Both the position numbers and the translations under genes were made by a program. Below are positions 3-26,732 of a DNA stretch of 26,732 nucleotides, one piece after another (within the stretch, counting starts at the first letter, position 1; every line of letters starts with the position of its first letter). The stretch is from Oehlia diaphana (lineage: Eukaryota; Glomeromycota; Glomeromycetes; Glomerales; Glomeraceae), in the NCBI GenBank assembly GCA_003833135.1, contig QZLH01000657.1, positions 19,253 to 45,984 of the forward strand, read 5' to 3'. The notes under the pieces were generated by a model that saw only the letters and a list, made by a program, of their open reading frames with translations, did no database searches and was not told the DNA's origin.

Positions 3-305
3 ATGAGAGAAAACAAAGATATGAATAATAAAAAGAAGAAATCTTTAACATTAGCTCAAAAGAAAGAACTTTGCAAAAAATGTAGAGATCAAAAACTTAG
101 TGGTGTTCAATTAGCAGTACAATATGGAATTTCCACTAGCACAGTTTTCGATATTTTAAAAAGATCAGAACATTGGCTTTCCATTGATACCACATTACCA
201 AATGCAAATAATTTTTGTGAAAAATCTAGTGTTTATCCACAACTAGAAGAAGTAATGAGCATTTGGGGTATGACAGATAGTTCTTTTATAAGAATAAAAT
301 TATGA
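3..305 (+). pseudogene. Pogo/CENP-B-type transposase N-terminal HTH, truncated
   Basis: This 100-residue open frame begins with a basic stretch and a psq/CENP-B-N-like helix-turn-helix: the run LTLAQKKELCKKC, then SGVQLAVQYGISTSTV, then FDILKRSEHWL. After it comes YPQLEEVMSIW, which resembles the start of the second (CENP-B-type) HTH of Tigger/pogo transposases and their domesticated relatives. Such proteins normally continue for several hundred residues with a DDE catalytic domain; here the frame stops right after the first residues of the second HTH, and I see no DDE region downstream. I read it as a truncated transposon remnant, or a first exon whose remainder was lost. The second ATG (position 21) is an equally good start. 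The window begins immediately upstream, so a promoter cannot be judged. Confidence 0.6.
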
Positions 306-4104: not shown

Positions 4105-5120
4105 AATTCCAAATTATATTTACAATAATGTAGCCATTTATATTAATGATTTGACGTTTGAGTGTAGAGGATTAATTAAGGAATTGTAAAAAATAATTAT
4201 CAATAAAAATTGATTAATTTTTTACAAAAAACTTTAATATTATGAAAATATTACAAATATTTTTATTAATTAATTATAAATTTTATAATTATTACTTATT
4301 ATTTATTTTACGTCAATCTTAAACTTATAACCAACCTAGAAAAAAAAATATTTGAACAATTAAATGTATTAGGATCTATTCATTTCATTTATTATTATTC
4401 TTTTGATATTTATTTTACTCGATAAATTATTAATTTAACTAAACAACTTGAATTAAAATCTTTATTCAAAAATCCTGGTGATTATTTAGAGAATTTCGGC
4501 GGATATGGATTTGGATATAATAATCTATTATTAATCAACATTTTCTTCAATTAATTAATTATAAATATTGTAAAAATATCAATTTTTTTTTGATTTTTAT
4601 GAATTTGAAAATCAAACTATTTATCCAGCGTTCAATTTAATTGAAAAAACCTTAATCATCTTTCTATCAACGTCGGTCAATTTACCTATATCTGATATGT
4701 TATATTGATTTTTTTTTTTAAAAAAAATAATAATTTTGTAAATATATTTAATATAATATTAATAATAAAAAAATTGAAGAAAAATTTTAAAAAAATTTGG
4801 GGAAGAAAAGGATAAAAAAAGAAACCAGTTTAAAAAAAAGGGAAATTTCCGAAAAAAAGGAATCCGAAAAAAAAAAATAAGTACGAAAAAAATTCTGAAA
4901 AAAAGGACAATAATCCAATCCAAAAAGACAATACATTCTAAAAAAAAAAAGATCGAAAAAAAATAATATAAAAAAGATTGGTCTTAAAAGACCGAAACAA
5001 TGGGGATTATTTAATAAAAAAAAAAACTTCAGTTTGGGAAAAAAAATTAAACCTAGACGGGGAAAGATGAGAAAAAACAAATTTTTCGGTTCGAAAATTT
5101 TTTTTTAAAAAAAAAATTTC
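4105..5120 (+). repeat. Dispersed repeat copy with purine-rich tract
   Basis: This block matches the reverse complement of 20285-21120 along most of its length; shared landmarks are ATTAATGATTTGACGTTTGA (4140-4159), TTAATCATCTTTCTATCAAC (about 4652-4671) and AAATATATTTAATATAATAT (about 4739-4758). From about 4787 the plus strand becomes almost pure A and G, with reiterated short units like GGAATCCGAAAAAA and GATCGAAAAAA. A small hairpin, GGTCTT-AA-AAGACC (4980-4993), precedes a final A/T-rich end that contains a further fold-back near 5086-5120. It lacks the outer ACTAGCA end present in other copies. There is no credible coding sequence; the long minus-strand frame over the purine tract is compositional. 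Confidence 0.7.
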
Positions 5121-6659: not shown

Positions 6660-8164
6660 TTAGCGCTTTATGATTTGAAATACTTCGTAATCTTCTATAG
6701 CAAAATAATCTTCAGAATCCCTTATCTTTTTTTTATAAATGTTCTTTTTACAGCGAATTATTTTATAATCCGTAAATTGATTTTCATTCCATATAACAAT
6801 ATCCTGACCAAAATATGGACCATGTTTAGGGTGATAGTTCAATGCATGATCTATATTTTCTACTTTGCTTATAATTGCATCTTTAATATTCTTATTTATA
6901 AAAGAAAAGATAAAACTTTCATTGGTTTCACCCCAAGTATTAGAAGATTCCCATTTTAAAGGACTATATCCACCAAAAATTTCATCTATCCCTTTTGTTT
7001 TAATGAATGTAACAGTATTATATTTATCATCACATAATTCATGAAACTTTTTAGGAGTAAATCCATCTCGACTTCCCCTTAATAATAATAAAAATTTGTA
7101 TGGTAAATATAATTCTCTAAGATGAGAAAATTTGTTAATTTCTACTTTATCAATACACTTTGAAATAAATGAAACAATATTTAAATTAACTAATTTTGAA
7201 TCAATAATTTTATCCATACTAAAATTTCTGGGAAGTAAAAAATTATCAGTGGATACCCTATCAGGATCCAAATAGGAATTTAATAGGCCTTCATATAATT
7301 GATGACTTAAAAGTTTTTTATACGGCCGAATTTTTCGTGAGAATTCAATAGATGATAAACAACAAAATCTAATTAAAGGTAAACAATGTTGTAGAGAATT
7401 TTTCATTGTTTTGAAATCGTCATCTGACCAGGTTTCAAGATCTGGAATGAGATTTGGATTTTGCGCAAGACCCCATTTTAATACATGTTCCCACACTTCA
7501 ATTTCTTTCATTTGTAAATCATCCCTTCTGAGAAATGAAATTAAAGATTTCTCAGGAAGAGAAGTAAAATCAAACGATTGAAATATTTTTTCAGGAGATT
7601 CAGCCATTAAATTTGTACAAAATTCTTGAAGTCCTGATAATGATTTGGATTGAAAACTTGTTTGATGAATAAGTTCAAAATGTTGTTCTAACCATTCAGA
7701 ATTATTTTCAATTAAATATTTTTGTAAATAATTAACTAGTTCTTGAAGACGAAGCTCATCTGCAGCTACCAATACATTTAGAATATCTGAAGTTTCTTGT
7801 CCATTCAATGAAAGAATGCCACCGTAAATATACCTATATGAAGAAATTTTAAATTTTGTAGTTACAAGTATATTAAGGTTCAATTATATAATATTTAATA
7901 AATTTACCCCAAAACAATTTGAAAGATTTCTGGAGATATATTTGGTAATTTGATATGTGATAAAACACCATTATCATTCTTTTTATTAGAAGACAAAGTT
8001 CGTCGTAAGTACGAAGAACGGTAACATAAAATATTCATATGAGCGCGAAAGATTTTTACATTGGGATCTTCCCCAACTTCAATTGTAATATCATAATACT
8101 CATTATCCTCTAATAGTTCAATAAAATTTTGGCTTAATAATCTAGAAAACAGTTCAATAGACAT
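6660..8164 (-). CDS. BTB-BACK-TLDc protein, copy 1 (intact)
   Basis: Two exons, 7908-8164 and 6660-7833, are joined over a 74-base GT-AG intron whose removal restores the conserved IVLGYIYGG of the BTB fold; the product is 476 residues. Residues about 1-118 form a BTB/POZ domain (DNEYYDITIEVG, IFRAHMNILCYRS, LPNISPEIFQ). Residues about 130-270 form a BACK region (WLEQHFELIH, EVWEHVLKWGLAQNP, CLPLIRF). Residues about 293-476 form a TLDc domain (RGSRDGFTPKKFHELCD, FGGYSPLKW, SFIFSF, and the terminal EDYEVFQI). BTB-BACK proteins commonly serve as substrate adaptors for Cullin-3 ligases, and TLDc proteins are linked to V-ATPase and oxidative stress; the target here is unknown. The family is strongly expanded in Rhizophagus. 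This is the only one of the three neighbouring copies with all domains complete. The ATG at 8164 is the family start. Confidence 0.88.
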
Positions 8165-8231
8165 TATTTTACGTATTTCAAATAAAAAAATGAGAAAGGG
8201 AAAAAGACATTTTTTATTGTTCAGATTTGAT

Positions 8232-8253
8232 ATTGATATACAATTACATGATT
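8232..8253 (-). promoter_or_regulatory. Conserved upstream box, copy 1
   Basis: On the gene strand it reads approximately AATCATGTAATTGTATATCA. The same box lies upstream of copies 2 and 3, while the sequence between it and the start codon differs more. It is either a shared promoter element or simply duplicated flank. Confidence 0.4.
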
Positions 8254-8516
8254 GGTGATTAAAAATGTAAGTATAACAAGACTACAAGAGGTAATTTTCT
8301 ATGGGAAAGCTTGATAGTAATTACAAAAAAGGATTAGCACTTAAAATTACTATGACCTTGATTCATGATTCCCATAATGAATTTACAATTCCAGTAAGAA
8401 TTAACAATCGTTAGCATAAAATCATCAACCATAAGAGAATTTTTTTAGTCCATTGAGAGAAGATAAAGATTTACAAATATGACGTAAAAAATAAGTTCCC
8501 CAAAAAATTCTGCGTA

Positions 8517-8546
8517 AATCATGTGATCATCACAAATCACATGATT
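8517..8546. repeat. Perfect inverted repeat with 11-base arms
   Basis: AATCATGTGAT (8517-8527) and ATCACATGATT (8536-8546) are perfect reverse complements around an 8-base spacer. Each arm carries a CATGTG/CACATG E-box-like core. It lies about 70 bases upstream of the ATG of the zinc-ribbon relic, so it may have been a regulatory site of that gene. Confidence 0.6.
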
Positions 8547-8613
8547 GTGATTAAAGACGTAATTTACATAAAATAATAAACTTTTATTTAAGTTTCACTT
8601 TTTCACTTTCAAT

Positions 8614-8986
8614 ATGGATATTGTAACTATTGATAATTTACAAAAATGTGAAAAATGTCGAAAAAATTTATCTCTAGAAGCTTTCATTCTCGGCAATTTA
8701 AACTTATAATATATGTCGGCATAAAGTTACTTTGCAATATGAACAATCAGAGGTAGAACTTTTAATTCTAGAAGAAATGTCAAAACAACTATTTGAAAAA
8801 ATTTTAGAAATCAACACTAGTGAATATTTAGAAACTAGTACTATAGATTTTAATTGCAATGTTTCAAAAATTTTTTCGACCACGTCTTGATTTAGTAATT
8901 TATATTCTTCTTATTCCACATCATCAACAACAATTAATAAATATTTATGTGGCCATGAAACCTTCATGGTGGTAAGATTAAATTAA
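8614..8986 (+). pseudogene. Zinc-ribbon-type small protein relic
   Basis: The ATG at 8614 opens a frame reading MDIVTIDNLQKCEKCRKNLS, with CEKC followed by a hydrophobic/Phe segment, and then breaks by a frame change near 8700; the next frame continues QFKTYNICRHKVTL. Together they resemble a CxxC...F...FKTCxxCRxK zinc-binding head common in Rhizophagus proteins, with the third Cys changed to Tyr. An acidic helical segment follows (SEVELLILEEMSKQLFEKIL), then a stop near 8890, and a second possible frame shift. Fragments with splice-like borders continue to about 9190 and perhaps 9470, but I cannot build a convincing exon chain. Called a pseudogene with moderate confidence. Confidence 0.5.
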
Positions 8987-10437
8987 TAATGAATATTTTA
9001 CTGATATTGAAAAGTGGATATGTTCTTGTTTGGGCTTTTTAAAAATTGATTTTTTCTTTGTAAACATTTAATTAATGTTTCTCAATTTACAATTATCCTT
9101 CTTTTTTTTTACAAAGTTCAACGTCAAGAGATATATCCTTACCAGGTGAAGAATCAACGCAAAATCCACCTTCTAATTCAAATAGAGGTAAATATATTTA
9201 TATTATCATATTGACAATAACAAAAATAAACCTTTTTTTGTTCTTTTTTTAGATAATGCATTAACAATATAACAAATGCAACTTTTTTAAGATTACAAAT
9301 TAATACTATGTCAAGCATTGAAAATTGTAGAAGAATCAGGCAAGTTTCAAGGGAATTAAAAGTTTAATAACTGATATTAATAAGTATGAAAGACAGATTA
9401 TAAATCCACGTACTTGGAAAGATCATAATGAACATACGATGTTTTTAGAGAAGCGATTTATTTTGTACTAGATAGGCAAGTAAATTAATAAATTTCTTTT
9501 TTAAAATAATAAATTAATAAAGTTTTCTTTAAATTTCATTATAAAATACTTTTAATTTTTTTGAATATCCGAATTCACATGGTTTGACACGTGATATTTT
9601 GCCAGTTCATTACGTGAAATATCTGAAATATCTAAATATAAACAAAAAGGCGACAATAAAAAATAGCAAAAATTAAGAATGCAAAATTTATTTTTCTTTT
9701 TAAAAAAAAGTGTTTTTTTTTTTTTTTTTTTTTTTTGATTAAAGTGATTTGATCATGTAACGAGTAACGACTTTATTGTATTAAGTCACACAAAAATTAA
9801 AAATCAAATAAAAAAAATTATTTTATAATACTGTAATTGATTTTTTTAATAAATATATTTATGTGAAAATTGTAAAAATTTAAAAAATTGTTGAAATGAA
9901 ATAAAGCTTAATATAAAGAAGTTAATAATTAAATATTTTTTATGGAATTTTTAGGATTTTATCCTACATTATTGTAAACCAACATCTCTCCCGGTCACTA
10001 ATAATCTCATTAAGGCGAAATTCCAAGAGACCTTTTAGATCTTCTAGTTCATGTTGTAACAATTTCAATATTTTTTTTTATAGTGATTCAACAAAGATTT
10101 ATTAGGATAACAAGCAATTTGAAAAGTTTTGTGAATATAAAATGTTTGTTAATCTGCAATCAACAAAATACTCGAATCAAATTGTTTTGTTTATGAGTTG
10201 AATTAATTATTACAAAGAAATAATTCAAAAAAAAAAAAAAGATTTGTTATTTATTTATTCGTATTTGATTTAAATACGTACTAGAAGCTACGGAACTATG
10301 GAATTATTCCAATAATGCTTAATTGGAAAAAAAAAGAAAAAAATTTTAAAATAGAATACGTTTCCTCTAGTTAAATCCTCATAGTTTACATTATCTATTT
10401 CTTATGTGATAAAAGGAATTATTTTGTCTCAGTAAAA
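8987..10437. other. Mostly gene-free, with possible old exons and a T24 run
   Basis: 9110-9190 and 9250-9470 contain splice-like borders and short coding-like pieces (for example SRDISLPGEESTQNPPSNSN) that may be the remainder of the zinc-ribbon relic. An uninterrupted run of 24 T lies at 9713-9736. The last part (10288-10437) is the 3' flank shared with the other BTB-TLDc copies. No intact gene is visible. Confidence 0.4.
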
Positions 10438-11957
10438 CTAGCGCTTTACGATCTGAAATACTTCGTAATCTTCTATAGAAAACTTATCTTCAATATCTCT
10501 AATCTTTTTTTCGTAATGATCCATTTTACAGTAAATTACATTATAATCTGTGTCTTGACCTCTTGAACTCCCCAAAATAATATCATTGCCGAAACATGGA
10601 CCATGTCTAGGGTGATAGTTCAATGCACGATCTATATTTTCTACTTTGCTTATAATTGCATCTTTAATATTCTTATTTATAAAAGAAAAGATAAAACTAT
10701 CATTAGTTTCACCCCAAGAACTAGAAGTTTTCCATTTTGAAGGATTATATCCACCAATAATTTCTTCCGTCCCCTTTATTTTAATAAACGTAATAGTATT
10801 ATATTTATCATCACATAATTCATGAAACTTTTTAGGAGTAAACCCATCTTTACTTCCTCTTAATAGCAATATAAGCTCGCGCGGTAAATAATATTCTCTG
10901 ATATGAGCAAATTTGCTATCATTATTGTCAATCCATCTTAAAATAGTTGAAAAAATATCAAAATCAACAATTTTTGAATCAATAATTCTATCACTTTTAA
11001 TATTTCTAGGAAGTAAAATATTATCAATTGATACATTATCAGAATTCATATAGGAGTCTATTAAATCTTCATAAAGTTGTTTACTTAAGAGTTTTTGATA
11101 CGGACGAACTCTTAGTGTCAATTCTTTAGACGTTAAACTAAACAATCTAATTAAAGGTAAACAATGTTGTAGTGATTTTTTCATTGTTTTGAAATCATCA
11201 TCTGACCAAGTATCTGGATCTTGAGTGAGAGTTGGATTTTGTGCAAGGCCCCATTTTAACACGTACTCCCACACCTTAATTTCCCGCATTTGTAAATCAT
11301 CATTTTTAATGAGTGAAATTAGAGATTTTTCAGAAAGAGAAGTAAAATCAAACGATTTAAATATTTTTTCGGGAAATTCGGCCATTAAATTTGTGCAAAA
11401 ATTTTGAAGTTCTGATAAAGAATTGGATTGGAAACTCGTTCGATGAATTAGTTCAAAATGTTGTTCCAACCATTCAGAATTATTTTCAATTAAATATTTT
11501 TGTAAATAATTAACTAATTCTTGGAGATGAAGCTCATCTGCAGCTATCAACGTATTTAAAATTTCCGAAGTTTCTTGTCCATTCAATGAAATAATACCAC
11601 CATAAATATACCTATATTCAAAAATATAGTATTTAAATTAAGTAATTGCATTTAAATTTAAATTCGATACAGTAGTAAAATAAACAAAAAAAAAAAAATT
11701 ACCTTAAAATAATTCGAAAATTTTCTGGTGAAATATTTGATAATTTAATATGCGACAAAACACCATTGTCATTCTTTTTATTAGAATCCAAAGTTCGTCG
11801 TAAATATGGAGCGGTGACACAAAATATTCATATGTGCACGAAAAATTTTTACATTAGGATCTTCACCAACTTCAATTGTAATATCATAATATTCATTATC
11901 TTCTAATAGTTCAATATAGTTTTGACTTAACAATTTAGAAAATAGTTTAGTAGACAT
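10438..11957 (-). pseudogene. BTB-BACK-TLDc protein, copy 2 (frameshifted BTB exon)
   Basis: Exon 1 (11703-11957) and exon 2 (10438-11611) have the same organisation as the neighbours, and exon 2 has exactly the length of copy 1 exon 2 (1174 bases). Exon 2 is fully open through BACK (HFELIHRTSFQS, EVWEYVL-like KVWEYVLKWGLAQNP) and TLDc (RGSKDGFTPKKFHELCD, IGGYNPSKW, SFIFSF, EDYEVFQIVKR). Exon 1 is 255 bases instead of 257: two bases are missing at about 11811-11813, just after the residues MNILCHR, so the frame reaches TAA at 11781-11783 after 58 codons. The intron is 91 bases with GT-AG borders. Either the copy is recently dead, an internal Met (MNGQETSEIL, codon at 11584-11586) starts a BTB-less protein, or the deletion is a sequencing error. 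Confidence 0.8.
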
Positions 11958-11967
11958 AATTTTACGA

Positions 11968-11988
11968 TTTTTTTTTTTTAAAAAAAAA
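11968..11988 (-). promoter_or_regulatory. T-run/A-run junction before copy 2
   Basis: Twelve T followed directly by nine A lie ten bases beyond the start codon of copy 2. On the gene strand this is T9 then A12. A similar junction precedes copy 3 and the kinase gene, suggesting a shared core-promoter or nucleosome-excluding element. Confidence 0.4.
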
Positions 11989-12041
11989 GAGAAACTTTTT
12001 TTTTAAATTTAGTAAGTTATATAATATTTACATATACTGTA

Positions 12042-12063
12042 TTTGATGTACAATTATATAATT
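12042..12063 (-). promoter_or_regulatory. Conserved upstream box, copy 2
   Basis: On the gene strand it contains TAATTGTACATCAAA, matching the boxes at 8232-8253 and 13877-13899. It lies about 85 bases upstream of the start codon, nearly the same distance as in copy 3. The remaining 200 bases to the next copy are AT-rich without a gene. Confidence 0.4.
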
Positions 12064-12263
12064 TGTGGCTAGACATATATGTATAAATTTCGTTTCACAA
12101 TGCAAGATACGCCGTTATAAATAAAGTTAATAAACATAAATACGAATTATCATACATTTCATTATTTTTGGATTTAAAAAAAGAAATTGATGATTTATTT
12201 AAATTTAAAAAAATAAGTTTACTTTACTAAATTATCATGTTAAAATTTTCATTGGAGAAAGAT

Positions 12264-13791
12264 TCATATATTAAACGTACTACAAATTATGGAATTAAGA
12301 ATTATTCCAATAATGTTCCAATTGTAAAAAAAAAAAGAAAAAAAATTTGTTATTTTTTTTTTATAATATAGCCTTCTACAGCGAATTCTTTCATAATCTA
12401 ATTGATCTGCAGAACTGTATATAATAATATCACTGCCAAAATATGGACCTTGTGTAATGTAATTATTAAATGCATAATTTGCATTTTCTACATTACTCAT
12501 AATTGCGTCTTTAATATTCTTATTTATAAAAGAAAAAATAAAGCTATCTTTAGTTGTAACCCAACCACCATTAGATTCCCATTTTAAAGGGTTGTATCCA
12601 CCAATAATTTCTTCTGTTCCTTTTATTTTAATGAACGTAATAGTATTAGATTTGCCATCACATAATTCATGAAATTTTTTAGGTGTAAATCCATCTCTAC
12701 TTCCTCTTAATAATAGTTTAAATTTGTATGGTAAATATAGCTTTCTAATATTAGCGAATTTGCTACTGTAATTCATGTCTATTTTATCAACCCATCTTGA
12801 AATAGCCGAAACAATATCTAAATTAACTATTTTCGAATCAATAATTTTATCAAATTTAATATTTCTAGGAGGTAAAATATTATCAATTGATATATTATCA
12901 GGATCCATATAAGAGTCTATCAAGTCTTCATAAAGTTGTTGATTTAAGAGTTTTTGATATGGTCGGACTTTCTGTCTTAATTCTTTGGATGATAAACAGA
13001 AAAATCTAATTAAGGGTAAACAATTTTGTAAAGTATTTTTCATCGTTTTGAAATCATCACCTGTCCAAGCTTTTGGTTCTGAAACAAGAGTTGGATTTTG
13101 TGCAAGACCCCATTTTAACACGTGCTCCCATACTTCAATTTCTCTCATTTGTAAATCATCCTTTTTAATGAGTGAAACTAGCGATTTTTCAGGAAGTGAA
13201 GTAAAATCAAATGATTTAAATATTTTTTCAGGAGATTCTGCCATTAAATTTGTGCAAAATTGTTGAAGTTCCGATAAATATTTGGATTGAATGCTCTTCC
13301 GATGAACAAGTTCAAAATGTTGTTCCAACCACTCAGAATTATTTTCAATTAAGTAATTTTGTAAATAATTAATTAGTTCTTGAAGATTAAGCTCATCTGC
13401 AGCTACCAATGTATTTAGAATATTTGAGGCTTCTAGTCCATTCAATGAAAGAATGCCACCGTAAATATATCTATAAAAAAATTAAAATTAGATGGTTACA
13501 AAGTATATTAAGTAATATTAAATAAAAAATTTACCTTAATATGATTTGAAAAACTTCTGGTGATATATTTGGTAATTTAATATGTGATAAAACGCTATTA
13601 TCATTCTTTTTATTAGAAACTAAAGTTCGTCGCAAATATGGAGAACGGTAACACAAAATATTCATATGTGCACGAAAAATTTTTACATTAGGATCTTCAC
13701 CAACTTCAATTGTAATATCATAATATTCATTATCTTCTAATAATTCAATATAATTTTGACTTAATAATTTGGAAAACAATTCAGTAGACAT
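12264..13791 (-). CDS. BTB-BACK-TLDc protein, copy 3 (altered C-terminus)
   Basis: Exon 1 (13535-13791) and exon 2 (12264-13470) join over a 64-base GT-AG intron to give 487 residues. The BTB (DNEYYDITIEVG, MNILCYRSPYLRRTL) and BACK (FELVHRKSIQSK, EVWEHVLKWGLAQNP) regions are complete. The TLDc domain is normal through RGSRDGFTPKKFHELCDG, GGYNPLKW, SFIFSF and YFGSDIIIYSS, but after YYKKK the usual end (IRD..., then EDYEVFQI) is missing. Instead the frame runs through an A/T homopolymer zone into the 3' flank, adding about 30 unrelated residues (TNFFSFFFYNW onward). The shared 3' block normally 100 bases past the stop now lies inside the coding frame, so a deletion between the last coding bases and the flank is the simplest cause. 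The last TLDc strands are lost; folding may be impaired. Confidence 0.75.
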
Positions 13792-13800
13792 TATTTACGA

Positions 13801-14213: not shown

Positions 14214-14431
14214 GCAAATGTAGTAAATAATATAAATCAATGAATTTTTTTCATAATATTATGTATATTGAGTTTGGTTAAATGCTAACTAATTGTTTGT
14301 TTAGCAAATGTAAATAATAAAAATCAATAATTTATTGGGTTCATATCCTAAGGAGTTGGTTAAATGCTAACTAATTGTTTGTATAGCATATAATTAGGAG
14401 TTGAGGTAAATATTAATTAATTGTTTGTTTC
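14214..14431. repeat. Degenerate tandem repeat, about 82-90 bases, 2.5 units
   Basis: Units begin GCAAATGTAGTAAATAATA (14214), GCAAATGTAAATAATAAAA (14304) and GCATATAATTAGGAG (14386). The best-kept part is GGTTAAATGCTAACTAATTG plus TTTGT (near 14277 and 14358); the third unit has GGTAAATATTAATTAATTG plus TTTGT. The third unit carries the stop codon and last codons of the neighbouring minus-strand gene. Confidence 0.65.
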
Positions 14432-15652
14432 TCCTTGTTTTTAAACAAGGAGAAAATTTTTCTTCAAGACGTTTCATGACTTCATCCATACCACCACCAC
14501 TATAGAGGCTAATCAAATTTTCATTATAAGCTTCTGTTGTGCCACTGACTCTATTCACTTTTTTTATTGTCAATTCTCTTACAACACCATCTAATCTACC
14601 AGGAGTTGCCTCAGGATTATGTTTTATAGCAAGGCTTGCAATGGCTAGTTCCTGCATAGCATTTGCCATAATTTTATTATATAACCTTTTTTCTTCTAGA
14701 TTATTTTTAGTCATCTGCTTCCTTTTAGTTATCTCTTTATAATCTATATTTTGTGAACTAATTAACTGCAAGTTGATTAATACATTTGAGTTAGTGAGTT
14801 TGTATCACATTATACATAATCAATACAAATATATACAGTATATTTACCTTCTCATGTTCTATAATAAATTTTTTCCAGTATAACACTAACCATATTTCTG
14901 AATGCTCCAATTTTGTCTATTAAAAAAAATATTAGTTAGCAGTGTAAATTTTTTATTTAGAACAAAGGAAGGCACAGGTCTGGATTTTTTATTTAGGATA
15001 AATGAGGGTACATGGCTGGTCTAACCAACAGTTCATATACTAATGATAAACTTAGGACACTTAATTGAAGAACTGTGGAGTGGTTACACACAGAGCACAA
15101 CAAAAAATTAATTCTTCCAATCAGATGCACCCTCATAGGAGTTACTCTCCCTGTAAAAAAAAGTTAATCCATTATTTATATCCCATCTTTTTAAAACCTC
15201 ATACTTTCAGAATTAATAACCTTATATCACAGAATTTATAAATAATTATCATTTTCTGTGAATGGACCCATAAAAGGCTCATTTTTTACAGAAATAATGG
15301 ATAAAATTTTTATAGTTCCTAAGCTTGCAAAATATAAAATAAAAAATACACTGTACCTTTTCTTTTAAGTCCATCCCCAGTTTCTCACCTTCTTTTAAAA
15401 ATTTAAATGACCAGAATTCATCCAAACTTTTCCAGTTTGAAAATGATGAAGAAGCAATGATGACATCAAGGTGTAGATCCATAAATTCATGATATGATGA
15501 TCTATAATTTTTCTCTCTTAAATAAGAGATGAGGACTGTATTTAAAATGAAGATAAGAATTCAAATTAAATAAAAGAAGGGAAAAGATTATAAGTCCTCA
15601 AGTCACAAAACTTACTATCTTGGCCAAGGTATTTAGATGTACCCTCCTCCAT
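14394..15652 (-). CDS. Unrecognised four-exon protein, 218 residues
   Basis: Exons at 15616-15652, 15357-15535, 14848-14916 and 14394-14765 join through three GT-AG introns of 80, 440 and 82 bases into one open frame. I do not recognise the family. The product is hydrophilic and mostly helical-looking: MEEGTSKYLGQDILISYLRE at the start, then YHEFMDLHLDVIIASSSFS, an aromatic segment (WKSLDEFWSFKFLKEGEKLG), TKLEHSEIWLVLYWKKF, a basic stretch KEITKRKQMTK, and a glycine-containing segment (SLYSGGGMDEVMKRLEEKFS). No signal peptide or membrane helix is evident. The last dozen codons come from the third unit of a tandem repeat, and a perfect fold-back lies in codons near the end, so the C-terminus is probably recent. 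Coding status rests on clean splicing and frame, not homology; the large second intron could hide another exon. Confidence 0.55.
14429..14454. repeat. Perfect palindrome, 12-base arms
   Basis: TTCTCCTTGTTT and AAACAAGGAGAA flank a 2-base centre. It lies inside the final exon of the unrecognised gene near its stop. A transcript would form a strong hairpin from either strand, so it could act in 3' processing. Confidence 0.7.
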
Positions 15653-16514
15653 GATTATTTTTAGCCAAAGTCACAAAAAGTTAAAAATGGTAAAAAAAAA
15701 AAAAATATTTGGCAATTGCAGGTCTTTAAATAAAAAAAAAATTTTGTTCTTACAACATTTTTAATAATACTGAAATAACATTGCATCATCTTTATTGAAA
15801 TAAGAAGATAACTTGATTTAGAAATAATAGCAAATTATGATTTTTTACTCAGTGTGTCAATTTTTTTTTTATTTAAAAAAGAACTACAAAAAGATTAATA
15901 AATATGACACATATTGATATTAATATTATTAGAATATTTAAAAATGACCATTCAAAATTTATAAAGTTATTGATATGATGTGATAGCTTGTACTGTAATT
16001 ATGAGTATCAGTTTATAGAAGACGCGTAGACGTCGTGTGTTTGTTTTTAAAAATTAGTATATCTAGAAGATATATCAATGTTTATCACCTTAATGTGTTT
16101 TATAATATCAACAGTTCAATACAATGTTACCATACAGAAGCTTGTAAATAGATGCACCGAAATTGAGACTCGGAGATATCAGGTGATCTGCTGCGTTGAA
16201 TAGTGCCGACCGAGACTAAGTTAATTCCGGCTTGAATTAGGACGGTATCAGTATGACTGATTTACGATTAACTTTGTTATACGTAATTTATAATGAAGTC
16301 GGTATATAGTGAAAAAATTAATTATAGATGGAAGAAAAAAGTTCGTTATGGGCCAAAATCAGTTTATCCCGAATCGTTATATCGAGTTATGACTGTATTC
16401 TTTTTTTTTAAAAAAAAATGTCATGCTCTTCGCGTTTTATTTGTTTATATTTATAGAATTAATAATCTTTTTTATTTCATAACAATGAAATTAACTAGAA
16501 GAAAGGTATTTTTC
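15653..16514. other. Gene-free stretch upstream of the TLDc relic
   Basis: 15653-16000 is AT-rich and probably holds the promoter of the minus-strand gene. 16010-16300 is less AT-rich (for example GACGCGTAGACGTCGTGTG) and may be transposon debris. An open frame of 78 codons (16293-16529, plus) interrupted by a T9/A9 junction near 16400-16418 encodes nothing recognisable. Confidence 0.35.
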
Positions 16515-16925
16515 ATTAAGAGGAAGTAAAGATGGGTTTACTCCTAAAAAAATTTCATGGGTCATATGTGTTGGTAAATATAATACAGTTCCTTTATTAA
16601 AGTAAAAGGGACAAAAAAGAAATTATTTGTGGGTATAATCCATTAGAATGGGAGTCTTCTAGTTCCTGGGGTAAAACTAAAGATAGCTTTATTTTTTCTT
16701 TTAAGAATGGGAATATTAAAGATGCAATTATCAGTAACGTGAAAATACAAATTGTGCTGTAACATATTCATTGGAAGATACAAGAAAAATATTAGAACCA
16801 ATTTTGGACCACATCTAGGAGTAAATATACAGATTACAATTCAAAAGAATTTTTATGAAAAAAAAGATAATTGGGATTGAACATTTTTCTTTAGAAAATT
16901 ATAAAGTATTTCTAGATAGATGAAT
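16515..16925 (+). pseudogene. TLDc-domain relic
   Basis: Piecewise translation gives DGFTPKK, then (shifted) KKFHGS, then GTKEIICGYNPLEWESSSSW, GKTKDSFIFSFKNGNIKDA and IISNV, followed by decayed pieces of the C-terminus ending NYKVF. Each piece has its counterpart in the same order in the TLDc domains at 6660-7300 and 10438-11000, though on the opposite strand. At least three frame changes and several stops break it, and no BTB or BACK sequence precedes it. It marks a further, inverted, dead copy. Confidence 0.8.
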
Positions 16926-20284: not shown

Positions 20285-21237
20285 AACTACATTATTAACT
20301 TTTTTTGTCCGATTTTATATATTATTTTTTTTCGATCTTTTTTTGACCGTATTGTTATTTTTTTTAAATTTTTTTTTTTTTTCACTCTTTTTGGACCAGA
20401 ATATTTTACGGTACTTATTTTTTTTTTTTTCGGATTCCTTTTTTTTTCGGAAATTTCTCTTTTTTTAACCGATTTCTTTCTTTATCCTTTATTTCTTTTT
20501 CTTTCGATTTTTTTTATTACTAAATAAAGAAATAAAACATTATATTAAATATATTTACAAAATTAATTTTTTTTAAAAAAAATCAATATAACGTGTAGGA
20601 AAATTGACGTTGATAGAAAGATGATTAAGATTATTAAGATTATTTTAATTAAATTGAACACTGGATAAATAGTTTGATTTGATTTTCAAATTCATAATAA
20701 TCAAAAAAAAAAATTGATATTTTTACAATATTTTATAATTAATTAATTGATTTAATAATAGGTTATTATAATCAAATCCATATCCGAAATTCTCTAAATA
20801 ATCACCAGATTTTTTGAATAAAGATTTTAATTCAAATTGTTTAGTTAAATTAATAATTTATCATGTGAAATGAGTATCAAAAGAATAATAATAAATAAAA
20901 TGAACAAATTTTCTAATACATTTAATTGTTCAAATATTTTTCTTAAGTTGGTTATAAGTTTAAGATTGACGCAATATACAGTAAATAATTAGAAATAATA
21001 TACGGTAAATTTATAATTAATCAATTTTATTGATAATTATTTTTTCACAATTCCTTAATTAATCCGAATTTCATTCTACACTCAAACGTCAAATCATTAA
21101 TAATTTATATCATTATAATATTATAAATATAATTAATACATATTATTTTATTCTTTTGTTAACTAATTATTACCATATACTAAATTTTTCTATTTAAACA
21201 AACTCATTGGTCCGATGAGAAGCAAAGGGGGACTGCT
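20285..21237 (-). repeat. Inverted copy of the dispersed repeat
   Basis: Read on the minus strand this is the fullest copy: it starts at ACTAGCAGTCCCCC (21237 downwards), passes CCAATGAGTTTGTTTAAATA, ATTTGACGTTTGAGTGTAG and TTATAACCAACTTAAG, and ends in the purine-rich tract (20285-20520 is its pyrimidine complement, with TTTTCGGATTCC and CCGATTTC). Relative to 4105-5120 it has the outer end but stops before the GGTCTT-AA-AAGACC hairpin. No coding sequence is recognisable. Confidence 0.75.
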
Positions 21238-21515: not shown

Positions 21516-22240
21516 ATGACTACCTAAAATTGAGTCAAAATTATATTGAATTATTAAAAGATGGAAATATTATGATATTACAATTGAGGTTGGTGAAACC
21601 TAACTTAAAAATATTTCGTGTTCATATGAATACTTTGTGTTACCATTCTTCATATCTACAACGAACTTTAGCGAAAAATAATAATAATATTAGGTTACCG
21701 AATATATCACCGAAAATTTTTCAAATTATTTTATAGTAAATTAAACAAAGTTTAATATACTAGAGAATAAAATTTCTAATTTTTATTAAATTCTTATAAT
21801 ATAGGTATATTTATGGTGGTATCCATTCGCTGAATGGGTTAGACACATATGGTTTTCTTAAAATTTTAGCATCTGCAAATGAACTTTGTCTCCAGGAACT
21901 AGTTGATTACTTACAAAAGTTCTTAATTGAAAATAGGTCCGAGTGGATAAAACAACTTTTTGAATTTACTCAAAAATTTCTTCACGGTCAAGATAATTTG
22001 TTAAAACTTCAAGAATTTTGTACAAATTTAATGGCTCAATCTCCTAAAAAAATATTCAAATCATTTGATTTCAATTCATTTTTCTGAAAAATCTTTGATT
22101 TCACTTATTAAAAAGAGATGATTTACAAATGAAAGAAGTTGAAGTGTGAGAATATGTATTAAAATGAGGTCTTGGACAAAATCTAACACTCGTTCCAGAT
22201 ACTAAGAAATGATAAAAAGAATTGATAATAAAATCAACTT
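21516..22240 (+). pseudogene. BTB-BACK relic of the BTB-TLDc family
   Basis: From the ATG at 21516 a stop follows after three codons, then the BTB region continues as SQNYIELLKDG, (shifted) and KIFRVHMNTLCYHSSYLQRT, LPNISPKIFQII. A GTAAAT donor (near 21737) and a TATAG acceptor (near 21804) bound the intron at the family position, and exon 2 reads YIYGGIHSLNGLDTYGFLKI, LCLQELVDYLQKFLIENRSE and LQEFCTNLMAQSPKKIFKSF. After that a +1 shift, a second one, and TGA in place of conserved Trp codons (in the EVW and LKW motifs) destroy the BACK region. No TLDc sequence follows. A run of about 22 T precedes the start. Confidence 0.85.
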
Positions 22241-22579: not shown

Positions 22580-25500
22580 TCAATCATCAATTGAACAGTC
22601 TAAACAATCTAAACATTCAGTAAGAACTCTTGTAAATTGATTGAGTAATCGAGAAGTATAATGAGCTTGTGAATGAATAGTTAATTGATTATTATTAATA
22701 GATAAAAAAATTGCTTTTCTATATTCTTCTGCTTCTTTAAATTGCTTTATAATTTCTTCATTTTCATAGATTCTAGGATTCATAAAAGAATTAATTAACT
22801 TTTCTATTTCAATAGCACTTGGTCTGTTATCTGGATCTGAATCCCAACATCTTTTCATTAATTCAATATAACATTTTGGTGCTTTTTGTTCATTTATTTC
22901 AGGTCTAATTCCATCACATATATTTAGTACTAAAAATTCATCATGAGCACAGTTAAAGAAAGGTTGCATACCAGTTGCTACGAAATACATAATCATACCA
23001 AAACTATATATATCTGCCGCTTTAGTATATGGATTTCCTCTCAATACTTCAGGTGACATAAAAGGCATAACCCCATAAATTTTTGTTTCATCTACATTAC
23101 TAACATCTCCACATAATCCCATATCTGATATATAAAATGTACTATCAAGATTTTCATCACCACCTTGTACATTAATAAATGATAATATGTTTCCTGTATG
23201 AAAATCACGATGAACCATATCATTTTCATGAATTATTTTAAGACCATTAATTACATTTTCTAATGCATCTAATCTTTCAAACCAAGACCAATTTACAGCA
23301 TAATTTTTAATATAATTATTAAAATTTCCACCATTTGCGTATTCAAAAACCATAATATAGTCTTTTGTATCTGGATTTTGAGATATTCCATATATTTGAA
23401 GAATATAATCATTATATTTGATGGAATATTTTTTAATCTAATAAAAAAATATAAAGTCAATTAAATTTTTTAACATGATAATAATTTTTAATAAATTATA
23501 AGTAATTCATACCTCATTTAAAAATTCATTAGCAATATTTTGTGAATTATATAAATTTTTTAAAGCAACTGACCTATTGGGACTTCTTTTATAATTTTCA
23601 TTAACACTATTACCACTACTATTACTATAATGATATATAAATGGACCATCCTTCCATATTGCTGAATATACTATAGCAAAACCACCTTTTCCTACTTCTT
23701 TAATATTATCAAACTGATTATATGGTATCCATTCAACTACTATATCATCAAAACCATTAATTCTCATTTGCATTTCTTGAATAAATTCATCAATTTTATC
23801 ATTTCCACTTGTCCAATTTGCAAAATTTTTTTTTAAATCATTTACTAAACATGATTTGCAACATTTACGAGTTGTATCAGTATATATTTTACCACAAATT
23901 TTACAATAATCATCTCCAAATACAATAATATAATCATTTGTATTTGGATTTTGAGATATTCCATACTTAAATAAATCATTATTTGTATTATTATCAAAAT
24001 ATGATCTAGCCTGTAAAACAAATATACGAAAAAGTTATAATTTGAATTATATAGGAAGGAATAGTTGATTATCAAGAAATTGAGAAGTACCTCACTTAAA
24101 AATTCATCAGTGATATTTTGAGAGTTATATGATAAACATTTCAAAACAACTTTTTTATTAGGCATGCTTCTTATGCATTTATATATACCAAAATTTAATG
24201 GACCATCTATCCATGTTGCTGAATATAGCGTAGTAAAATCATCTTTGATTATTATTTTGATGTTACTAAACTGATTGTATGGTATCCATTCAACTATTTT
24301 ACTATGATATTTTTCAATTTTTAATTGCATTTCCTGAATAAAATTATCAATTTTTTCATTTCCACTGGTCAAGTTTTGGTTTAAATTATTTATCTGACAT
24401 GGTTTGCACCATTGAAATTTTTCATTTGTGTATATTTCGCCTATTTTGCCACAATTTTTGCAATATCTATCATCAAGTACAATAATATAATCTTTTGTAT
24501 TCGCATTTTGAGTTATTCCAAATATATGAGGAATATCATAATCGTATTCATCAATTGAATATCCTTTAGCCTATTAAAAGTATATAAATGAAAATATTAT
24601 AATAGAAAGTATTTGAATTACTAAGAAATTATTTCATACCTCATCTATAAATTTTTGTGAATTATAAACACATCTCAAAGCAACTCTTTTGTTAGGTAAC
24701 CGTTCGTATTTCCATTTATTAGCTTCAACTTCTAAATATTTCAATGGACCATCTATCCATATTGCTGAATATAGTGCAGCAGTATCATCCTTACTTGTTT
24801 CTTTGATATCATTAAACCGATTATATGGTATCCATTCAACTACTTTATCCGTAAAAACGTTAATTTTCATTTGCATTTCCTGAATAAATTCATCAATTTT
24901 TTCATTTCCGCTGGTCCAATTTGTGAAATTTTGTTTTAAATTATTTATTTTACATGGCTTGCACCAACGCCGTAAATCTCTGCATATTTTGCCACAGGTT
25001 CCGCAATATCTTTCTTGAAATACTATAATGTAATCTCTTGTTTCTGGATTTTGAGATATTCCATATATTTTAGGAATATCATAATCAAATCTATAAATTG
25101 AAAATGATTTAACCTATTAAAGATACAAAAAGTTATTATTAATATAATAGGCACTTTAAAAATTGAATTACAAAAATAATTGAATTTATCAAGAAAGAAA
25201 TATAAGAAATGCATACCTCATTTAAAAATTCATTTGTGATATTTTGTGAATTATATATACATTTCAAAGCAACTTTTTCATTAGGTACCCTTTTCTTTTC
25301 CACTTTATAATTTTCATATTTCAATTGACCATCCATCCATATCGCTGAATATAGTGTAGCAGTATCATCTTTATCTATTTCTTTGATATTATTAAACCGG
25401 TTATATGGTATCCATTCAACTATTATATCATCATGACGATTAATTTTCAATTGAAATTCTTGAATTAATTCGTCAATTTTTTCATTTCCACTGGACCAAT

Positions 25501-25615
25501 TTGTAAAATTTTGTTTTAACTTATTTACTTGACATGGTTTACACCATTTATAACCATGAATTGTATATGGGTTGCCACAACATTCACAAATAACAGCTTC
25601 ATCTTGAGACGACAT
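22580..25615 (-). CDS. Multi-module zinc-ribbon/protein kinase, 902 residues
   Basis: Five exons (25217-25615, 24640-25113, 24091-24570, 23513-24010, 22580-23437) are joined by phase-0 GT-AG introns of 69-103 bases into one open frame. Exon 1 encodes a four-Cys motif (CECC...WCKPC), a helix (SGNEKIDELIQEFQ), and a kinase N-lobe (VEWIPYNRF, LYSAIW, VALK, ending FLNE). Exons 2, 3 and 4 each repeat hinge segment (YGISQNP...DYIIV), Cys motif, helix and N-lobe. Exon 5 carries YGISQNPDTKDYIMVFEYA and a full C-lobe: HRDFHTGN (about 693-700), DMG in place of DFG (about 722), SPE, and ADIYSFGMIMYFVATG. Only exon 4 keeps a glycine loop (GKGGFA, about 558); its Lys (about 602) and the Glu ending the exon complete the ATP site. 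The catalytic Asp, Asn and metal Asp are present, so the final kinase is probably active. Substrate unknown. The family is expanded in Rhizophagus. Confidence 0.85.
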
Positions 25616-26183: not shown

Positions 26184-26732
26184 GCAGTCATCCATTTCTT
26201 TGCTCCGGGACTAATAAATAGAAAAATTTAGTAAATTGAAAAAATCTTAATCATCTTTCTATTATTAACGTCGGTCAATTTTCCTACATGTTATATTGAT
26301 CTTTTTTTAAAAAAACATAATAATTTTGTAAATATATTTAATATAATATTTCTGATTTTATTTCATTATTTAATAATAAAAAAAATTGAAATAAAAAGAA
26401 AAAAAAAATTGGGGAAAGAAAAAGGATAAGAAATCGGTTTAAAAAAGGGAAATTTCCAGAAAAAAAAGGAATCCGAAAAAAAAAAAATAAGTACCGAAAA
26501 AAATTCTGAAAAAAAAGGACAATAATTCGATCTAAAAAGAGTGAAAAAAATTTTCTTTAAAAAAAATAACAGTACGGTCTAAAAAAAGATCGAAAAAAAT
26601 AATATAAAAAAAATCGGTCTTAAAAGACCGAAACAATAGGATTATTTCATTATTTAATAAAAAAAAAAAAAAAAATTTTTAGTATGGGAAAAAAAATCCA
26701 AACCTAAACGGGAAAAGAATGAGAAAAAACAA
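26184..26732 (+). repeat. Internally deleted copy of the dispersed repeat, runs off the window
   Basis: The outer end ACTAGCAGTCATCC, then TAGAAAAATTTAGTAAATTG, joins directly to AAAAAATCTTAATCATC, skipping roughly 500-700 bases found in the other two long copies. The rest follows 4660-5080 closely, with the purine-rich tract and the hairpin CGGTCTT-AA-AAGACCG (26615-26630). The copy continues past the window end. Confidence 0.75.

Follow-up and report, generated by a model that had tools for sequence, protein, structure and literature searches.

Structure of the kinase gene

A kinase gene with repeated N-lobes is predicted in a 26,732-nucleotide (nt) stretch of the Oehlia diaphana genome (positions 19253-45984 of contig C653, GenBank QZLH01000657.1), and this whole stretch is called the window here. 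The gene was assembled from open exons and predicted splice junctions; it has five exons (E1-E5), occupies positions 22580-25615 on the minus strand and is predicted to give a single transcript. Its predicted protein of 902 amino acids (aa) consists of four modules, each with a four-cysteine (C4) motif, helices and a kinase N-lobe, followed by one catalytic C-lobe. This order had been proposed in a preliminary description of the window, and the five open exons and the motifs found in each bear it out.

E1 (25217..25615, 133 aa) carries the start codon, a C4 motif (25532-25588), helices and N-lobe 1 up to helix alphaC, with a degenerate glycine-rich (Gly) loop, DKDDTA (25358-25375), and a retained VALK (25262-25273). 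Each of E2-E4 first completes the previous N-lobe (the end of alphaC, beta4 and beta5) and then encodes the next module, from its C4 motif through the helices to an N-lobe that reaches alphaC. In E2 (24640..25113, 158 aa), the C4 motif is at 24952-25005 and the Gly loop, SKDDTA, at 24778-24795, with VALR; in E3 (24091..24570, 160 aa), they are at 24397-24462 and 24232-24249 (IKDDFT), with VVLK. E4 (23513..24010, 166 aa) has its C4 motif at 23849-23905, VALK at 23558-23569, NE at the exon end and, as the only module of the gene, an intact Gly loop (GKGGFA, 23675-23692). E5 (22580..23437, 285 aa and a TGA stop) contains the end of N-lobe 4, the hinge (23327-23350) and the catalytic C-lobe with HRDFHTGN (23189-23212), SDMG (23117-23128) and SPE (23048-23056). 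Introns 1-4, also on the minus strand, are 103, 69, 80 and 75 nt long (25114..25216, 24571..24639, 24011..24090 and 23438..23512, respectively); all are GT-AG introns of phase 0, and a GAG codon stands directly before each.

The repetition is visible in the DNA as four copies of a 246-nt repeat spaced 557, 546 and 580 nt apart; three of the copies match the reference copy at 67, 78 and 82% identity. One C4 motif is found in each of E1-E4, and a segment of the YGISQNP type near the start of each of E2-E5. The preliminary description had taken this segment for the kinase hinge and had placed the break between units there, and both assignments had to be corrected. YGISQNP corresponds to the beta4-beta5 turn, the hinge is VFEYANGG, matched by pattern in E5 only, and the exons break within alphaC, right after the alphaC Glu. 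These assignments were based on kinase anatomy and on the beta4 and beta5 strands in the structure model of a relative, P0001 (see below). Since the introns cut alphaC and the next C4 motif starts after beta5, where the hinge would begin, every N-lobe is predicted to be complete after splicing.

A further piece of kinase C-lobe lies at 2501-2877 on the minus strand of the window; stretches of it have 81-83% DNA identity to the matching parts of E5, and none of the N-lobe modules called adjoins it.

Kinase, zinc-ribbon and fold assignments

Eukaryotic protein kinases are recognized by a Gly-rich loop, the Lys of VAIK, the alphaC Glu, HRD, D-x-G and APE. The N-lobe of E4 and the C-lobe of E5 together provide this set (GKGGFA, VALK, the alphaC Glu, HRDFHTGN, SDMG and SPE), and this pair is predicted to be a protein kinase. 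In Pfam scans, E5 matched PF07714 (E 2.6e-30), while E1-E4 scanned singly gave no kinase match. In P0001, PF07714 covers residues 555-827, i.e., the last N-lobe and the C-lobe, and among six array proteins scanned, five had one PF07714 stretch and P0029 had none. The upstream modules are called N-lobes because of their likeness to the last one, E2 sharing 61% identity with E4. A pseudokinase is a complete bilobal kinase fold whose catalytic motifs have been lost; the upstream modules have lost the Gly loop, yet they have no C-lobe of their own and fall outside this class. An upstream module is at most a pseudo-N-lobe. Nor does the gene encode a tandem kinase protein, in which at least two domains of the kinase or pseudokinase type share a chain, as each array has one C-lobe.

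Both CxxC pairs are present in all four modules of the window gene, and the CxxC-n-CxxC spacing is that of the NOB1-type zinc ribbon (PF08772). With this profile, P0001 scored 25.5 bits, over the cut-off of 24.9, and E4 gave a weak match of 16.4 bits, under it; the Pfam scan found no NOB1 match in E1-E3. The C4 motif is predicted to form a zinc-ribbon-like knot with putative zinc binding.

The preliminary description had raised the question of whether the N-lobes fold alone, and the AlphaFold model of the near-identical P0001 is in line with this: it has complete N-lobes (beta1-beta5 and alphaC), and the predicted local distance difference test score (pLDDT) in the upstream ones is mostly 80-90, with dips to 60-76. 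On this model, the upstream N-lobes are predicted to fold by themselves. A search of solved structures by sequence with E4 gave weak rows only (best E 0.14). In the fold comparison with Foldseek, which took in mainly residues 522-848 of the model, the top rows for the first model were JAK, EGFR kinase-domain duplication and TYK2 chains. JAK-type kinases carry a complete pseudokinase domain beside the kinase; the TM-scores of these rows relative to the query (TMq) were 0.21-0.25, and there is no whole-chain match to the model.

Relatives in public proteomes

A protein search gave 750 relatives, of which the best 120 were examined. In 97 of them, two to ten modules are followed by one C-lobe, and the other 23 have no C-lobe by the criterion used. 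Proteins with the repeated module and a single C-lobe, for which the preliminary description had suggested a search in related Glomeromycotina, are found in other proteomes of this group; the sources named among these 120 include R. irregularis, R. clarus, R. diaphanus and Glomus cerebriforme. Among the matches listed, the closest relatives of the window gene are Rhizophagus irregularis proteins, which points to a root-symbiotic fungus of the Rhizophagus type as the probable source. P0001 (strain DAOM 197198w, 896 aa) is 91% identical over its whole length, has the same four modules and is 88-93% identical exon by exon.

In P0062, the product of a near-identical gene on a 5.8-Mb contig, each of the five exons is represented in part and in the expected sequence, and five internal blocks are absent from the gene model. 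These blocks lie inside exons and include parts of the ribbon-helix regions. We suspect that the gaps are the family's own repeats masked during annotation. For DAOM197198, a near-complete assembly with genes refined by Nanopore RNA reads has been published (PMC10234402).

Misassembly as the main cause of the array was rejected, since the four modules recur in the same order in P0001, which comes from another assembly, and parts of all five exons are retained in P0062. The collapse of the tandem copies to one, considered in the preliminary description, is accordingly not seen in these assemblies.

Arrays across the genome

The genome searched is a 108.8-Mb assembly of 1672 contigs. Module searches with E2 and E4 gave at least 150 places each, which were collated by hand into at least 181 distinct module places in 72 same-strand clusters; 44 of these clusters have more than one module, usually at a spacing of about 550 nt, among the matches listed. 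These numbers place the window array beyond chance. The search with E5 listed 139 C-lobe places. Among the matches listed, a C-lobe follows within 1500 nt downstream in 41 of the 44 multi-module clusters, and one of the other three, a pair on C1211, sits in a longer array that ends in a C-lobe; for 77 of the 139 C-lobe places, none of the modules listed is adjacent. Six family C-lobes form a gene cluster on the plus strand of C42, within 40 kb (129573-169613). Single-module kinases with the same C4 motif are also present (C758, C629 and C934).

Arrays were read in 41 merged stretches (264 kb in total), and 32 arrays of two to nine modules, each ended by one C-lobe, were obtained. Two genes have two modules, 11 have four, four have five, five have six, five have seven, one has eight and four have nine. 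The first module starts at profile columns 19-45 in 27 of the 32 arrays and elsewhere in the remaining five, of which C306 and C1429- are at the edge of the fetched stretch and C21, C72 and C580 may be incomplete or broken. An in-frame GT-AG intron was found at 172 of 177 junctions by an intron finder that favoured GAG|GTAT donors; 171 of the 172 are of phase 0, and every junction was found in 27 of the 32 genes. Separate adjacent genes are an improbable explanation, as no catalytic C-lobe was called between the modules of the 32 arrays and the junctions are alike.

Position of the intact glycine-rich loop

When the 32 arrays were aligned to a profile, Gly-Gly (GG) was found at the Gly-loop columns of the last module in 31 of 32 cases, and of upstream modules in 2 of 137 (8 of the 145 were set aside for gaps). 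The full GxGG gave 29 of 32 for last modules versus 2 of 137 upstream. The Lys of VAIK is present in 32 of 32 last and 125 of 144 upstream modules, and the four Cys in 28 of 30 and 132 of 134, respectively. The commonest upstream replacements in the Gly loop are Asp and Asn. Gene by gene, the last module alone has GG in 30 of the 32 genes. A cruder pattern count gave 28 of 32, and the profile alignment was preferred because two misses of the pattern count were due to an "EW" that occurs earlier, in the ribbon. The exceptions are C597, whose last module has NKGDF, with DMK instead of DMG, while its module 2 has GRGGF, and C1455, whose module 4 has GKGGI. The same rule holds for the 97 public array proteins from the best 120 of the 750 relatives: the last module has GG in 91 (five are without it and one was unscored), compared with 4 of 447 upstream modules, 51 having been set aside. 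The preliminary description, in which this rule and the large family were missed, had suggested that the modules serve as multivalent sensors, scaffolds or decoys, and the loss of the Gly loop by position together with the retained Cys fits that suggestion.

The explanation that we consider probable, on the basis of these sequence comparisons, is that the front half of a kinase, an N-lobe with its predicted zinc ribbon, was copied in tandem as a phase-0 exon, the last copy and the C-lobe forming the working kinase and the upstream copies being ATP-independent binding modules that control or target it. A deletion may have joined the beta5 end of one kinase copy to the zinc-ribbon start of the next, with loss of the C-lobe between them, and the array may then have been lengthened by exchange between introns. 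An N-lobe without its own C-lobe would be freed from ATP binding and its Gly loop would decay, while the ribbon, helices and core of upstream modules would be kept for binding something. Binding would be the simplest use, and it could be regulatory or targeting; e.g., the modules could bring partners or further copies to the terminal kinase, or bind that kinase themselves and gate it. The Gly loop would be held only in the terminal N-lobe because only that N-lobe has a C-lobe to close the ATP site; since the ATP-gripping glycines stand only beside the C-lobe, in the window gene and in nearly all of the 32 arrays, the extra front halves probably serve in docking or sensing and not as enzymes.

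The same junctions and loop could also be read as a splicing switch, in which exon choice sets the number of modules and places an intact or a dead N-lobe at the C-lobe, isoforms that skip E4 being dead kinases. Skipping would keep the frame at the phase-0 junctions, and an intact loop in the last N-lobe only would suit such a switch. However, the one public model with gaps, P0062, is without blocks inside exons and not without whole exons, and we regard this reading as very improbable.

Constraint and history of the modules

Upstream variability is raised in the Gly loop, beta3 and alphaC, and less so in a loop and beta2; in the ribbon and helix 2, it is not raised relative to last modules. 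The value for profile columns 1-13 was unreliable and was left out of this comparison. The ratio of nonsynonymous to synonymous substitution (omega) under a codon model was 0.39 in the upstream modules, 0.50 in the last module and 0.69 in the C-lobe of the triple C619/C746/C148; for three C6 genes, the values were 0.25, 0.21 and 0.20, respectively, and for a BTB-TLDc control from the window, 0.24. These values indicate, at the level of sequence, that the upstream modules evolve under constraint. Pseudogene decay of the family was rejected in view of the Cys retention and the codon-model omega below 1; individual arrays, e.g., C597, may be in decay.

These data bear on the view that the arrays are a by-product of copying in a repeat-rich genome, with upstream modules as tolerated passengers without function. 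Fresh copies with similar introns, as in modules 4 and 6 of C380, would be expected from such copying, and relaxed constraint would account for the loss of the Gly loop taken by itself. On the other hand, the four Cys are retained in nearly all upstream modules, the ribbon and helix 2 are conserved as in last modules, omega is near that of the control in one triple (0.25 vs. 0.24) and every junction is kept in 27 of 32 genes; we consider passengers without function improbable. Another view is that the dead N-lobes are a reservoir for recognition, decoys or sensors as in plant tandem kinase proteins; each would imitate a kinase N-lobe to which a foreign or partner protein binds, and such binding would release or trigger the terminal kinase. 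The many paralogues and the variation of array length from two to nine suit it, as does the variability of the loop that separates the Cys pairs and of the one in the beta2-beta3 hairpin (2.30 and 2.45 bits), and the expanded kinases of Rhizophagus have been proposed to serve in perception of the environment (PMC8647823). Because these loops vary just as much in last modules (2.27 and 2.67 bits) and the codon model yields no omega above 1, we hold this view to be rather unlikely.

In a tree of 174 modules made with the Gly-loop and VAIK columns removed, the last modules are split, with 18 state changes compared with a mean of 28.7 after shuffling (minimum 25 in 200 shuffles), and FastTree without these columns likewise scattered them. 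The last modules appear to cluster in part in these sequence trees, and their origin as one old clade was rejected at p 0.0205 in the approximately unbiased (AU) test, a modest value. Module 4 of C1455 is 94% identical to the last module of its own gene and still has GG, so by its sequence it is a fresh copy, before or at the onset of decay. Modules 4 and 6 of C380 are 94% identical in the exon and 97 and 89% in the flanking introns, which agrees with exchange of units through introns, as such likeness is expected under that process; the median exon identity is 74% (285 within-gene pairs). A shared "QD" was sought as a sign of the fusion point and found in 91 of 377 internal linkers and 27 of 64 protein starts, which was too weak to be used.

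Several points weigh against the tandem copying of a front half into binding modules for a terminal kinase. A lost Gly loop is in itself also what plain relaxed constraint would produce, and it is silent on module function. Since the modules are related, the Fisher p of 2.2e-30 for the position rule (32 arrays) overstates independence, and the alphaC Glu, present in 29 of 29 last and 84 of 84 upstream modules, was scored only where the local alignment reached its column. The donor preference of the intron finder bears on the junction counts. The C-lobe omega of 0.69 in C619/C746/C148 exceeds that of its modules, and in some pairs omega by the method of Nei and Gojobori (NG86) was greater than 1, reaching 1.97 in the C-lobe and 1.35 upstream; these last values were set aside because the pairs were ranked by low synonymous divergence (dS) of the C-lobe and the method ignores AT-rich codon use. 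Finally, the module tree is weak and the AU rejection not strong.

Other features of the window

Three related BTB-BACK-TLD genes, the source of the omega control, lie at 6660-13796 on the minus strand; BACK and TLD matches were found in all three long exons, and BTB was scanned in one. Broken inverted BTB/BACK/TLD pieces at 21800-22200 and 16484-16745 on the plus strand are 73-90% complementary to the intact copies. A CENP-B N-terminal DNA-binding domain is encoded by an open frame (3-305, plus strand) that runs in from the window edge and is possibly the start of a Tigger/pogo-type transposase. An A-rich element is present at 4852-5026, 20313-20582 and 26428-26662 in both orientations, the copies being 60-93% alike, and an open frame of 136 aa (14394-14804, minus strand) has no Pfam match at E 0.01.

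Comparison with known systems and significance

Kinase expansion in Rhizophagus irregularis has been reported (PMC4219462), with 2,533 kinase genes in one account (PMC10234402) and PF07714 as the most frequent motif among the expanded genes in another (PMC6123716). These PF07714 or tyrosine-kinase-like kinases belong to the same C-lobe family and to the same genus as the arrays; the passages of this literature that we consulted give domain counts and copy number, and not repeated N-lobes or a position rule for the Gly loop. The plant tandem kinase proteins Yr15/WTK1 and Lr9/WTK6-vWA likewise have a kinase and a non-catalytic kinase part per chain (PMC10260399, PMC6170490). As far as described there, they hold kinase and pseudokinase domains, whereas the present family has extra N-lobes without a C-lobe, two to nine modules and C4 motifs. 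No description of repeated N-lobes without C-lobes, at two to nine modules per chain, was recognized in the titles, abstract openings and passages covered, most subscription papers being outside the search. Tandem kinases and pseudokinases are thus known, and repeated N-lobe arrays were not found described in these sources.

In the six array proteins scanned, Pfam left the other N-lobes unmarked. Repetition of half a kinase domain, in which the loop is kept only by the copy that has a catalytic partner, amounts to a natural experiment on the use of N-lobes without ATP, and it gives a handle on the huge and unexplained kinase set of arbuscular mycorrhizal fungi. As a more speculative proposal, to which we give a low probability, these fungi may run a repertoire of array receptors, in which N-lobes with zinc knots and a dead nucleotide loop, strung together, make up a modular and expandable recognition surface gating one kinase. 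If this is true, array receptors would be a fungal counterpart of the tandem-kinase immunity of plants or of self/non-self recognition, and growth by duplication of phase-0 exons would let any number of modules fit in frame.
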